From Phocaeicola vulgatus ATCC 8482 (lineage in GTDB: Bacteria > Bacteroidota > Bacteroidia > Bacteroidales > Bacteroidaceae), in NCBI RefSeq assembly GCF_000012825.1, contig NC_009614.1, positions 682,001 through 746,000 of the forward strand: a stretch of DNA of 64,000 nucleotides, given 5' to 3'. The notes below the pieces were generated by a model. It made no database searches. It had not been told where the DNA came from and was given only the letters and a program-made list of their open reading frames with translations. Position 1 is the stretch's first letter. Each line of letters starts with the position of its first letter. The translations under genes and the position numbers were made by a program. Below, piece after piece: positions 23,902 to 30,600 of this stretch.

Positions 23902-24462
23902 TTAATGCAAATAGAAAAAAAGTAAGGATACCGGCAGATAATCCTTCAATGCAAGACGTAACGTCCTGGTAGCTTTCGATATATGAAATTCCACTCCCTT
24001 AGTTGTAATATCCAATAGTTCTGCTATTTCTTTATGGGATTTATTTTCATTACGACTCATCACAAAGATTTTCCGAGTCTGTTCGGGCAAAGCATCCAGT
24101 ATCCTATCAACAATCTCCTGTATTTCCTTTGTAAAAACCTCATAGGGCTCGAAATCTTCCAAAGTCATGATTCTGCCCGACAATTCCCATGCATAGATTC
24201 GGGCTATTTCGTCAGAAGCATCCTGATAAACTTGTTGATGGCGCAAATAGTCAATACACTTATGCTTTATCGTGGTCAAGACATAAGCCGGAATATTAGT
24301 ATCAGCAGACAAACGATCTTTGTTCTCCCAATAGTACATCATTGATTCCACAACAAAATCTTCGGCAACAGCTTCATCATGCACATAAGTACAGGCAAAG
24401 TGGACAAAACGTTGCTGGTAGTCTATAAAGAATTTATTAAATGCATTCAAATCAATGCTCAT
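23902..24462 (-). CDS. ECF-type RNA polymerase sigma factor
   Basis: This 186-residue sigma-70 family protein carries region 2 (about 20-85, with the core-binding stretch EAVAEDFVVESMMYYWEN) and region 4 (about 125-180, with LPEQTRKIF and the HTH SHKEIAELLDITTKGVE). There is no region 1 or 3, as in ECF factors. It is the first gene of the sigma-FecR-SusC-SusD-GH30 unit and probably directs transcription of the susC promoter. Its own promoter is well formed (24503-24532) and vegetative in type. Confidence 0.95.
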   Translation of the reverse strand: MSIDLNAFNKFFIDYQQRFVHFACTYVHDEAVAEDFVVESMMYYWENKDRLSADTNIPAYVLTTIKHKCIDYLRHQQVYQDASDEIARIYAWELSGRIMTLEDFEPYEVFTKEIQEIVDRILDALPEQTRKIFVMSRNENKSHKEIAELLDITTKGVEFHISKATRTLRLALKDYLPVSLLFFYLH

Positions 24463-24502
24463 TGCCTATCAAACCGTATTAAATAAAAGGAGAATAATGG
24501 TA

Positions 24503-24532
24503 CAAATATACACTTTTACTTTTAAAAGCAAA
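24503..24532 (-). promoter_or_regulatory. Vegetative promoter of the ECF sigma gene (TTTG-N18-TATATTTG)
   Basis: On the minus strand TTTG (24529-24532) and TATATTTG (24503-24510) are separated by 18 bases, close to the Bacteroidetes consensus. This places transcription start about 35 bases before the ATG at 24462. Confidence 0.65.
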
Positions 24533-24665
24533 TGAAAGCTACCTCAAATTTTATGCCTCCAACAACGATAGTAATCCACCAAACAAAGAAAATATTCCTC
24601 CAAAGTTTCCCCGCCTTAAATAAAAGCAGTAACTTTATCCAATAATATACTAACATTAGGAAATA

Positions 24666-26873
24666 ATGAACAACCCAGAACTACAGCGTGCCTGGCAAAT
24701 AATAGAGAATACTGGCACCCATCTCTTCCTCACCGGAAAAGCAGGAACCGGAAAAACAACCTTCCTACACAATCTGAAGAAAGAATCTCCCAAACGCACA
24801 GTCATAGTCGCCCCCACCGGAATAGCTGCCATCAATGCGGGAGGCGTTACCATCCACTCCTTTTTCCAACTGCCATTTGCACCTTTCATCCCCGATACCA
24901 CGTTCAATACCGAACAAAAACATTTCCGGTTCAGCAAAGAAAAAATTAACATCATCCGAAGCATGGATCTGCTGATCATTGATGAAATAAGTATGGTGAG
25001 GGCAGATCTGCTGGATGCCATCGACTCCGTACTCCGCCGGTATCGGGACCGATACAAACCCTTTGGAGGCGTACAATTGCTGATGATTGGTGACCTGCAA
25101 CAGCTTGCCCCCGTAGTGAAAGAAACGGAATGGAATATGCTGAGTCACTATTATGATACCTCCTATTTCTTCGGAAGCCGCGCCTTGAAAGAAACCACCT
25201 ACGCCACCATCGAACTGAAACAAGTCTACCGCCAGAACGACCCCTATTTCCTTTCCTTGCTGAACAAAGTCCGGGAGAATAAAGCCGACGAACAGACACT
25301 CGCAGAATTGAACCAAAGATATATTCCCAATTTCCATCCTGTCAAAGAAAAAGGATATATCCAACTCACCACTCACAATTACCAAGCACAACAGATTAAT
25401 GATCACGAGCTTTCACTCATCAAAGAACCGGTTTTCAGTTACAAGGCAGAAGTCACCGGAATTTTTCCTGAATATTCTTATCCTACAGATGAAACATTGA
25501 TGCTGAAAAAAGGAGCGCAAATCATGTTCGTCAAAAATGACCCTTCCCCGGAAAAACGTTATTACAATGGTATGATTGGCGAAATCACTTCTATAGATGA
25601 GGATGGATTTACCGTCCGCACCAAAGAAAAGAATGAAAAAATCATTGTCCAACCCGAGGAATGGACAAACAGCAAATATGTGCTAAATGAAGAAACAAAG
25701 GAAATAACCGAGGAACAAGAAGGAGTCTTCAAGCAATACCCTGTAAAACTGGCATGGGGCATCACTATTCATAAAAGCCAAGGACTGACTTTTGAACACG
25801 CCATTATTGACGCCCGCTCCGCTTTCGCCCACGGACAGGCATACGTTGCCCTGAGCCGATGCAAAACATTGGAAGGGATGGTTCTCAGTTCCCCACTTTC
25901 CGTCAACGCCATTATCAACGATACAATAATCGATGACTATAATCAGTATATAGAAACACATACCCCCAATGAAGAATTACTCCATGCCATGCAACAAACT
26001 TATTTTCTCAATCTCGTTAGCGAGCTATTCGATTTCTCACCGATAGCCCGTTCATTCAATGAGCAAGCCCGACTGATTGACGAACATTTCTACAAGCTCT
26101 TCCCTCAGTTACTGGCAGAATATAAAAAGCAGATACAAATATTTACTACTGAGATAGTGGATGTATCCTATCGTTTTCACAAACAATATGAACGTCTGGT
26201 AACACAATCTACTGATTATAATACGAATAACGACCTACAAATACGCATCATAAAAGGAGCCGCCTATTTTGAACAAAAACTACGCCCTTTCCATAAACTG
26301 GCTGAAGCGACCAATCTTCCCACGGACAATAAAGAACTAAGAAAGAAAACGAACAACACCTTGGAAGAGTTCTTAAACACTTTGACACAGAAACTTTCCT
26401 TGCTACAATATGTAGAAGATAATGGTTTTCACGCCAGTGACTATCTACGTAAAAAAGCGTATATCCTTTTAAGCGAAACCGATAATAAAAACTCCTCAGG
26501 TACAACGGCACACGACAGAAAAGAGCGCACCCCCAGAGAACGCGTATCCAGAGAACGGAAGAGAATTGAAGTTCCCAACGACATACTCCATCCAGAACTT
26601 TATCGGAAAATCACCGAATGGCGTGGAACTAAAGCAAAAGAAACCGGTATGCCGGCCTATGTCATTATCCAGCAAAAAGCTCTGTTGGGAATGGTCAATC
26701 TATTGCCTAATGATGCAGAATCATTGGAAGCTGTCCCTTATTTCGGACGTAAGGGGGTAGAGAATTATGGTTTGGAACTTCTGGGAATTATCCGGAATTA
26801 TATGAAAGAACAAAATCTGCAACGCCCTGAAATAAGAACCGTATTTGTTCCCCGGGAAAATAAAAAAAAATAA
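24666..26873 (+). CDS. PIF1/RecD-like superfamily 1 helicase, truncated by frame change at an A9 tract
   Basis: This 735-residue ATP-dependent DNA helicase has Walker A GKAGTGKTT (residues about 20-30), Walker B LLIIDEISM (about 100) and GDLQQLAP (motif III). The UvrD_C_2-like C-terminal part ends with HKSQGLTFEHA and YVALSRCK (about 370-400). A coiled middle and an HRDC-like domain (about 645-712) follow. The reading frame ends ...ENKKK in a run of nine A (26862-26870), directly followed by TAA. An HTH_40-type domain normally found at the C-terminus of this helicase class continues in the +1 frame up to 27180. With eight A the product would be 837 residues. Either the gene is a frameshift mutant, or slippage at the A-run makes both forms. 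It is the only gene between two PULs. Confidence 0.93.
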   Translation: MNNPELQRAWQIIENTGTHLFLTGKAGTGKTTFLHNLKKESPKRTVIVAPTGIAAINAGGVTIHSFFQLPFAPFIPDTTFNTEQKHFRFSKEKINIIRSMDLLIIDEISMVRADLLDAIDSVLRRYRDRYKPFGGVQLLMIGDLQQLAPVVKETEWNMLSHYYDTSYFFGSRALKETTYATIELKQVYRQNDPYFLSLLNKVRENKADEQTLAELNQRYIPNFHPVKEKGYIQLTTHNYQAQQINDHELSLIKEPVFSYKAEVTGIFPEYSYPTDETLMLKKGAQIMFVKNDPSPEKRYYNGMIGEITSIDEDGFTVRTKEKNEKIIVQPEEWTNSKYVLNEETKEITEEQEGVFKQYPVKLAWGITIHKSQGLTFEHAIIDARSAFAHGQAYVALSRCKTLEGMVLSSPLSVNAIINDTIIDDYNQYIETHTPNEELLHAMQQTYFLNLVSELFDFSPIARSFNEQARLIDEHFYKLFPQLLAEYKKQIQIFTTEIVDVSYRFHKQYERLVTQSTDYNTNNDLQIRIIKGAAYFEQKLRPFHKLAEATNLPTDNKELRKKTNNTLEEFLNTLTQKLSLLQYVEDNGFHASDYLRKKAYILLSETDNKNSSGTTAHDRKERTPRERVSRERKRIEVPNDILHPELYRKITEWRGTKAKETGMPAYVIIQQKALLGMVNLLPNDAESLEAVPYFGRKGVENYGLELLGIIRNYMKEQNLQRPEIRTVFVPRENKKK

Positions 26874-27180
26874 AGAAGACACCAAAAAGGTCAGTTTCAG
26901 ATTATTTAAAGAAGGGATGAAGGTAAAGGAAATCGCTGAATTCCGGGAATTGACTACCGGTACCATCAGCAACCACCTTTTACACTATGTCCGGACCGGA
27001 GATATCAAACTACAAGAATTAGTCGACCAAGAAAAAATAAATTATATTACAGCTCATCTCCAGAAATTCTCCTCTCTGCCACAAGGAGTGAAGGAAATAA
27101 AAGAAAAGTTAGGCGAATATACTTCTTACGATGAAATACGTTTTGTCTTTGAAGCATATAAAAAACATATACCGGCATAA
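26845..27180 (+). pseudogene. Out-of-frame C-terminal HTH_40 domain of the helicase
   Basis: From about 26870 to 27180 the +1 frame encodes roughly 100 residues with a helix-turn-helix pattern (FRLFKEGMKVKEIAEFRELT, then TGTISNHLLHYV) and a tail like that of HTH_40 domains in RecQ- and PIF1-type helicases. No good start codon or ribosome site precedes it. The frame opens at 26845 only via TTG inside the helicase gene. It therefore looks like the severed end of the upstream protein rather than an independent gene. It could still be translated by transcriptional slippage or ribosomal frameshift at the A9 run. Confidence 0.7.
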
Positions 27181-27205
27181 ATTTCACTCATATTGAAGTT
27201 GCAAA

Positions 27206-27268
27206 AAGTAAGTGCACTTCATGAAACAAGTAAGTATACTTAAAATGACGAAGTAAGTACACTTACTT
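27206..27268. repeat. Three tandem 14-bp dyads AAGTAAGTNNACTT, period 22-23 bp
   Basis: Copies at 27206-27219, 27228-27241 and 27251-27264 share AAGTAAGTNNACTT. Each contains a palindrome (AAGTGCACTT, AAGTATACTT) or near-palindrome (AAGTACACTT). The third extends to the 18-bp dyad AAGTAAGTACACTTACTT. Spacing is 22 and 23 bp, two helical turns, so a protein could bind all three on one DNA face. They start 26 bp after the helicase-HTH frame ends. Confidence 0.75.
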
Positions 27269-27614
27269 GTTTTGCTACATAAAAGTGACTATCCGGATGA
27301 GAAAGATGATAAGGAGATTTGTGAATAGATGAAATAATAGTGAATGGTTAACAAGAAAAAGGAGGGGAAAGGAAGAGTCTTTCATAAACCGATTAGGAAA
27401 AATGATCCTTGAAACTGATATTTAACATCTTTATCTCATTGAATCATGTTATTTGTTTTTTTGAGCAATATGCGATATTCCATTTATAAGGAACGTACAA
27501 AATAACATGCATTCTCTCTTAAAATCGCCACCATGAGTGTTTCATAGCCTGTAATTTATTAAGAATAACAAAAAAAAATAAAAGAAAAGATAGCGTTATA
27601 TTCTTATAAAATAA

Positions 27615-27622
27615 TACATTTG
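27615..27622 (+). promoter_or_regulatory. -7 box (TACATTTG) upstream of the plus-strand susC
   Basis: TACATTTG fits TAnnTTTG and ends 69 bp before the ATG at 27692. No good -33 TTG is seen, as expected for an activator-dependent PUL promoter. Confidence 0.5.
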
Positions 27623-27691
27623 CAGCAACTGAAATAGAAAGGGAATAAGATCCCTAAACCAAACTATTTACTAATTTAACCTTATTAATCT

Positions 27692-30600
27692 ATGCAATTC
27701 TACCAGAAAAGAAGGGAAAATTGTGTAAAGACACACGTAATTTTGAAAAAAGCCTCTTTTTATGCGTGTCTTACACTATTTGCCGGAATGGCTTTCCCAA
27801 TGCCTTTGTGGGCTTCGCAGTCAACTGCCATCGTGCAACAGCATGTCAAACAAATTACGGGTATCGTAAATGATACAAGCGGAGCTCCTGTAATCGGTGC
27901 CAATGTAGTAGAAGTGGGAAGCACCAACGGTACTATTACAGATGTGGATGGCAAATTCACATTAAATGTATCCGTAGGGGCTAAACTGAAAGTTTCGTAT
28001 ATCGGTTACAACGACCAACAAATTACCGTAGGCAACAGCAACAGTTACACCATTATCTTGAAAGAAGATACAGAATCTTTAGATGAAGTGGTAGTAGTAG
28101 GATACGGTACTCAAAAAAAAGTAAATCTGACAGGTTCTGTGGCAACCATCTCATCCGATAAGCTAGTCAACCGCACCAGTGCCAATGTCACCAACATGCT
28201 GGCAGGACAAATGCCAGGTGTCACCATTATCCAAAATACCGGCCAGCCGGGAGCTGATGCCGGAGTACTGCGTGTGCGTGGTCTAGGAACTATGGGAGAT
28301 GCCAGTGCCATGGTTGTGGTGGATGGTGTAGAATCTACCATGAGCAGCGTGGACCCCAACGATATTGAAAACATCTCTATATTAAAAGATGCAGCCGCCT
28401 CAGCCATTTATGGTGTACGTGCTGCCAATGGCGTTATCCTTATCACAACCAAAAAGGGAACCAAAGGACGTACCATTGTATCATACGATGGATATGTAGG
28501 CTGGCAAAGTGCCTCACGTATGCCCAAATTTTTGGATTCTTACAATTATGCAGTGCTGATGAATGAAGCTTACACCAATGACGGTTTGAAAGGTCCGTAT
28601 GACGAAACAGCCCTACAAAAGTTCAAAGACGGAAGTGATCCCGACTTTTATCCCAATTCCGACTGGCTGGGTACGCTATTAAGTGAAAACGGCCTGTTCA
28701 ACAACCATCACTTGAGTATCAAAGGCGGTGGAGACAAAGTAACTTACTCGCTGGCATTCAACTATCATGATAAAGACGGATTGATAGTCAATACCAACTA
28801 CAACAAGTTCAATGTACGTGCCAACATTGACGCTCAGATAAACAGTCGTCTGAAACTGACTACAAATATGGCGGTATACCGCAGTAATATGACTGCTCCG
28901 GCGGCAGGTATCAGCAACCTGATGCACTATGCTTTCCGTGAGACTCCGGTTACTCCCATCCAATTGAGCAACGGCAACTATGCTTTATTCAAAAACGAGC
29001 ACAACTCCGTAGCCTATGCACGTGAAGGAGGAACCTACAAAGAGATAAACAGCAATTTCCAAGGTAACGTAGGAATGGAACTGGACATCATAGACGGACT
29101 GAAACTGAGAGGAGTCGCCGCCTCGACTTTCAACCTGACCGACAATCCCACCCACGTAAATACCATGACATTCTATCAGGCAGGTTCAGACACACCGGTA
29201 AAGAAAACCACTAACTCCATCACAGAATATGACATCAAAAGTATGGAACTGAACTTGCAAGCTTATCTGGACTATAATAAAACCTTCGGCAAACACACAA
29301 TAGGAGCCTTATTAGGTTACTCACAAATTTATAAACAGACACGCTATCTGCAAGCTTACCGTAAGAACCTGCCCAACTCCAACTCACTGGACCAGATCAA
29401 CGCCGGTGAAGTGACAGGACAGACAACATACGGTACAGAAATAGAATACGCCCTCCGCTCAGCTTTCGGACGCGTGAATTATTCATACGATGACCGCTAT
29501 CTGCTAGAAGCCAACCTGCGTTATGACGGCACTTCACGCTTCCCCAAGAACAACCGCTTCGGCGCATTCCCCTCTTTCTCCATCGGATGGAGAATATCGG
29601 AAGAAGAGTTCTTCAAAGCCGATTGGGTGGATAATTTGAAACTACGTGCATCATGGGGATTGCTAGGTAATCAGGAAACCGTAAACTCGGACAACAGTTC
29701 TAACTATTATCCGTATCAGAACACCTATCTGTTCGGTTATGACTATAGTTTCGGCAACACTTTGACTCCGGGTATTTCCATTTCCAACCCGATGGCTAAC
29801 CAAGATATTACGTGGGAGAAAACCGATCAATGGAACGTAGGTGTGGACGCCGCTTTTTTGGGCAATAAACTGACATTGGGCGCAGACTGGTTCCGCAAGG
29901 AAACACGGGACATATTACTGCAACTTCCAGTTCCCAACATGATGGGAGTCAGCGCTCCGATGCAAAATGCCGGCGTAGTGCGTAATACCGGTATCGAACT
30001 GCAACTGGGACATAACAACCGTATCAATGATTGGAGCTATTCTATCGGAGCCAATTTCAGCTATGTAACTACCAAAATCATGGATTTGAAAGGCGGTGAC
30101 ACACCGGGGCAATCCGTAGGCGACCCACTGTGGGCATATTACGGCTACGTATGCGACGGCATCTTCCAAAACGAAGAAGAGATCAAGAATCATCCTACAC
30201 AGAGCATGGGTACTCCGGTTCCGGGTGACTTAAAATACCGTGACCTGAACGGAGACAAAGTAGTAGACAGCAAAGACCGGCAAGTATTGGGTTCTTACTT
30301 CCCGAAAATCAACTTCGGTCTGAATCTTTCAGTTCAATATAAAGACTTCGACCTAAGTGCACTGCTGCAAGGTGCAGCTGATGTAAAGAGTGCTCCTGTA
30401 GCCGAAATCAGATATGCCTTCTACAATGGCGGTAAAGTAACGGAACAGCATCTGGACCGTTGGACTCCGGAAAACCCGAATGCCACTTATCCCCGATTAT
30501 CCATGAGTGACTCCAAAAACCGCGTGACTTCCAGTTTCTGGATGCAGGATGCCTCTTATGCCAAGCTGAGAAACCTGCAAGTAGGTTACAGCCTGCCCAA

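Follow-up and report, generated by a model that had tools for sequence, protein, structure and literature searches.

The helicase locus

The window analysed here is a 64,000-nucleotide stretch of the Phocaeicola vulgatus ATCC 8482 genome and belongs to a single contig of 5,163,189 bases. It contains a gene for a PIF1-like helicase (Table 1) that, with neighbours named by eye from their translations, appears to stand alone between two SusC/SusD-like loci. In the 735-residue product, Pfam places a PIF1 domain at residues 12–192 (101.7 bits) and an HRDC domain at residues 644–709 (54.7 bits), both above cut-off; the nearest solved structures found by sequence search are 5ftb and 5fhd. The initial annotation described a helicase frame that ends at a run of nine A's followed by TAA, with an HTH_40 tail left open in the +1 frame. 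Both features are borne out, the former by the sequence and its open reading frames, the latter by frame translation and Pfam. HTH_40 lies not in the helicase frame but in the +1 frame beyond the TAA, where it is matched in the frame spanning 26845–27180 with 83.2 bits against a cut-off of 27. No solved structure was matched by the sequence of this tail, the best E value being 0.79.

Table 1. Features of the helicase gene, in window coordinates
Feature	Position	Strand	Basis
PIF1-like helicase ORF, 735 aa, C-terminal ...PRENKKK-stop	24666..26873	+	ORF and Pfam
A9 tract	26862..26870	+	Read from the sequence
TAA stop arising from the frame change	26871..26873	+	Read from the sequence
HTH_40 tail, +1 frame, 102 codons plus stop, without internal stop	26872..27180	+	Frame and Pfam
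First ATG of the tail frame, putative re-initiation site	26917..26919	+	Read from the sequence

Run length and reading frame

Translation of the locus with run lengths from 6 to 12 revealed that only runs of 8 (837 residues) and 11 (838 residues) join the helicase and HTH_40 frames. With 6, 9 or 12 A's, translation stops at the TAA; with 7 or 10, it enters the third frame and comes to a dead end at 750–751 residues without HTH_40. A single added A, giving a run of 10, thus leads to the 751-residue dead end, and HTH_40 is reached only by the loss of one base or the gain of two. The 837-residue protein that had been predicted for a run of eight is confirmed by this translation and by the unbroken frame of the nearest relative.

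The nearest relatives

Among 61 genomes of the genus that were searched, three, the window's own included, carry a match at 92–100% protein identity. Eight more encode a helicase of 52–54% identity that ends at about 700 residues, past the HRDC domain, and the remaining genomes hold weaker helicase relatives only. The closest gene, 97% identical at the DNA level and found in a genome (G008) that is presumably P. dorei, has eight A's at the tract and an intact 837-residue frame. The next, 89% identical and from P. sartorii (G027, contig NZ_BAKM01000024.1), has an interrupted 8-base stretch in this position and an intact frame of 834 residues. Pfam finds HTH_40 in frame with the helicase in both. 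The comparison of tract length among relatives that the initial annotation had proposed therefore shows the A-tract to be unconserved. No second genome of the species turned up in the plasmid, phage, viral-contig and genome collections, several of which may omit records that closely resemble the window's genome.

Compared with the nearest relative's gene (L003), synonymous divergence is uneven: it is 0.12 at codons 1–640 and drops at the 3′ end (window positions 26600–27180) to values of 0.03 and 0.02, while the stretch 25000–25199 holds 18 differences. Judged from these sequences, the pattern looks like mosaic exchange between these two species.

HTH_40 tails across related helicases

A survey of loci with a helicase match yielded 233, of which 207 are non-redundant. 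The sample is not random, since loci were chosen by their likeness to the window's helicase, and counts refer to the matches listed; 45 of the 60 added rows reach query residue 709 or beyond and 15 end earlier. HRDC and HTH_40 occur together at 29 of the 207 loci (window included), HRDC only at 78, HTH_40 only at 62 and neither at 38, the last being mostly remoter helicases of about 660 residues, plus cut sequences. For ten relatives, Pfam agrees with the survey: six have HTH_40, four lack it and nine have HRDC. HTH_40 normally ends helicases of this class, according to the initial annotation; this is true of the two closest relatives but not overall, as the domain is present in only 29 of the 107 HRDC-bearing sequences, window included, and absent from 78. 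For two tail-less sequences, L035 and L205, fewer than 70 bases are available past the stop, so absence of the tail there means absence in frame only.

In 90 of the 91 tailed sequences, HTH_40 shares both reading frame and ORF with the helicase; the window is the sole exception. A conserved programmed frameshift was rejected on this ground, the split being confined to the window. Near the junction, A8 occurs in four of the 28 other sequences with both HRDC and HTH_40 (L003, L056, L170 and L177), in all cases in frame, and no longer run was seen. From its sequence, the lysine-rich linker is a plausible place for slippage. The other tail-less relatives do not break off at an A-run, which leaves slippage undemonstrated as a common route of tail loss.

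One further helicase relative, L214 (G071:C30:48188-50329), was reported by the search as an open frame of 1265 residues with one TGA inside the match; its ORF as determined here ends at 711 residues.

We placed presence and absence of the tail on a FastTree tree of 167 helicase cores, from which the HRDC and tail columns had been removed and row L058 and the cut row L083 excluded. The tree requires at least 15 changes between presence and absence of HTH_40, and at least 10 among its 106 HRDC-bearing rows; these counts do not separate gain from loss, and they come from a tree in which 53 of 164 inner branches are weakly supported and long-branch warnings were raised. Tailed L144 stands beside tail-less L142 and L143, and tailed L151 beside tail-less L156, each with 98–99% local support. 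The architecture of the 735-residue product is thus one that many of the relatives use.

Substitutions in the tail

With G027 as outgroup, the window lineage acquired five nonsynonymous and no synonymous changes in the tail, compared with 7 and 22 in the remainder of the gene (Fisher p 0.003). The tail of the sister lineage has no nonsynonymous and one synonymous change, against which the window's 5:0 gives p 0.17. Against the long-term ratio of the tail between the two relatives (22 nonsynonymous, 18 synonymous), p is about 0.05, and about 0.07 by hand arithmetic with alternative boundaries (26 and 18). Across 39 pairs with intact tails, the nonsynonymous share ranges from 0.10 to 0.63, compared with five of six for the window and its sister; 36 of these control pairs consist of Flavobacterium-type helicases that lack HRDC, and the pairs are not independent. 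Small as the counts are, the substitutions are a weak sign of relaxed constraint on the tail.

In one Flavobacterium helicase (L099), the HTH_40 tail differs from close relatives with a dN of about 0.27, compared with 0.03 for the body, which would fit an exchange of the tail.

A-runs in the window and the genome

The window shows no excess of A8: 10 matches were counted against 11.5 expected, and 64 of 100 shuffles reach 10. Runs of nine or more A's number 84 in the genome, two of them within the window. Placed relative to mechanical ORFs of 90 residues or more, 30 lie inside an ORF, 11 fall at the start of one, 6 at the end of one and 37 outside any. At two of the six ORF ends another frame is open for 60 codons, the shortest that the split test detects: the helicase locus and one other place, which was rejected as a second split because, with names assigned by eye, it reads as two adjacent genes.

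These runs bear on whether the ninth A is an error of sequencing, cloning or assembly, or a mutation confined to the sequenced culture. The difference is indeed one base in a homopolymer, and the nearest relatives are intact. There is, however, no sign of a general homopolymer fault among the 84 runs, since only at the helicase locus does a domain run on in another frame, and the 5:0 changes in the tail hint, weakly, at an earlier loss of constraint. We consider such an error unlikely.

A distant helicase of the same genome (L268, 41% identical, ORF of 669 residues) has a coding-strand A9 of its own, at G000:C1:2583599-2583607, with its frame unbroken. The longest A-run found in the genome, 17 A's at G000:C1:371468-371484 (L238), overlaps no ORF of 90 residues or more.

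A proposal of two helicase forms from one gene

RNA polymerase slippage, or reversible replication slippage, on the A9 tract could yield a minority of tailed helicase from one gene. Pfam still recognises the open tail frame as HTH_40, and a run of nine would suffice for slippage, as it does in Thermus thermophilus dnaX, where nine A's give about half short product (PMC1088944). As described there, dnaX resembles the helicase gene in having a sense-strand A9 late in a gene of DNA metabolism and forms that differ C-terminally; in dnaX, however, it is the long form that the templated run specifies, whereas in the helicase it is the short one, and the tract is not common to the helicase's relatives. 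Citrobacter rodentium tssM1 (PMC4256274) is, like the helicase gene, a prematurely interrupted gene with poly-A by the stop and a C-terminal domain open in another frame, and is rescued at about 20%. Its run, however, is A11, added A's restore its frame and both forms have been shown, whereas the helicase run is A9 and one added A leaves its two frames apart. As in slipped-strand phase-variable genes (contingency loci), the length of a coding homopolymer sets the frame; unlike in those, the helicase tract is unconserved between species, with one genome of the species compared.

The arithmetic of the frames argues against this proposal. In E. coli and Buchnera transcriptomes, insertions dominate in homopolymer runs, 80% of insertions are single-base, and deletions within runs are rare in E. 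coli (PMC5574713). A single inserted A leads to the 751-residue dead end and HTH_40 needs −1 or +2, so the site is badly placed for designed slippage. A −1 slip of the ribosome would enter the same dead-end frame, and a dnaX-like −1 ribosomal frameshift was rejected because the tail occupies the +1 frame. Programmed slippage sites are expected to be conserved (PMC3711429); neither the split nor the A-tract is conserved among the relatives. The 70 nt directly downstream fold no better than shuffled sequences (z +1.0); a 123-nt downstream stretch is mildly stable (z −1.8, with 9 of 200 shuffles as good). No Rfam match at the gathering threshold was found in 24000–28000. The suggestion in the initial annotation that the locus makes two helicase forms, or switches between them, thus finds no support: the out-of-frame layout is unique among 91 sequences, the tract is unconserved and a single inserted A ends blindly. 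Slips of +2 or −1 may let through some tailed protein, but we consider the making of two forms from the one gene unlikely.

In a bolder version, which we regard as quite improbable, the A9 tract would be a young on/off switch of the helicase tail, with replication or transcription slippage giving cells of this species a mixture of tailed and tail-less forms, as the first stage of a recurrent loss of the tail in Bacteroidaceae. The tail-less helicase–HRDC relatives in this family (for example L034, L142, L143 and L156) share the PIF1–HRDC architecture of the 735-residue product, but they have no downstream HTH_40 remnant in the stretch available, whereas the window's remnant is present and open. 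If isolates were to switch between eight and nine A's, they would provide a natural pair for probing the function of the HTH_40 tail.

The tail might also be produced on its own, as a small HTH protein acting in trans, through re-initiation at the ATG of the tail frame, 43 bases past the helicase stop. A start at this ATG would omit the beginning of the HTH_40 match, and no separate or out-of-frame downstream HTH_40 was found among the relatives surveyed, which makes this highly improbable.

A probable truncating one-base expansion

The frame and its relatives are most readily explained by a simple mutation, which the initial annotation had named as a plain alternative and which is favoured here: both nearest relatives are in frame with eight bases, and the split is unique to the window. 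We consider it likely, from the sequence comparison, that an expansion from eight to nine A's truncated the PIF1-like helicase in this genome and removed a dispensable HTH_40 domain. Replication slippage in the A-run, which encodes the lysine-rich linker joining HRDC and HTH_40, would have inserted one A; this would bring the TAA into frame and give a helicase–HRDC product of 735 residues, presumably expressed. Loss of the tail would be tolerated because many relatives naturally use the tail-less architecture, and the out-of-frame tail would be a recent remnant. Some observations speak against this reading. The tail is still free of stops and scores 83.2 bits for HTH_40, which is not below the 80.7 bits of the nearest relative's tail; the 5:0 substitution count is small; and the other tail losses lack an A-run where the sequence breaks off. 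If truncation is the right reading, the locus possibly captures an early stage of an HTH_40 loss that seems to have been repeated across helicases.

No title on this helicase locus was found among the literature matches listed, part of which were off subject. An origin of the gene from a mobile element was rejected, as searches of plasmids and phages gave nothing closely matching the gene and those of viral contigs gave no relative; distant helicase relatives are carried by 28 plasmid records.
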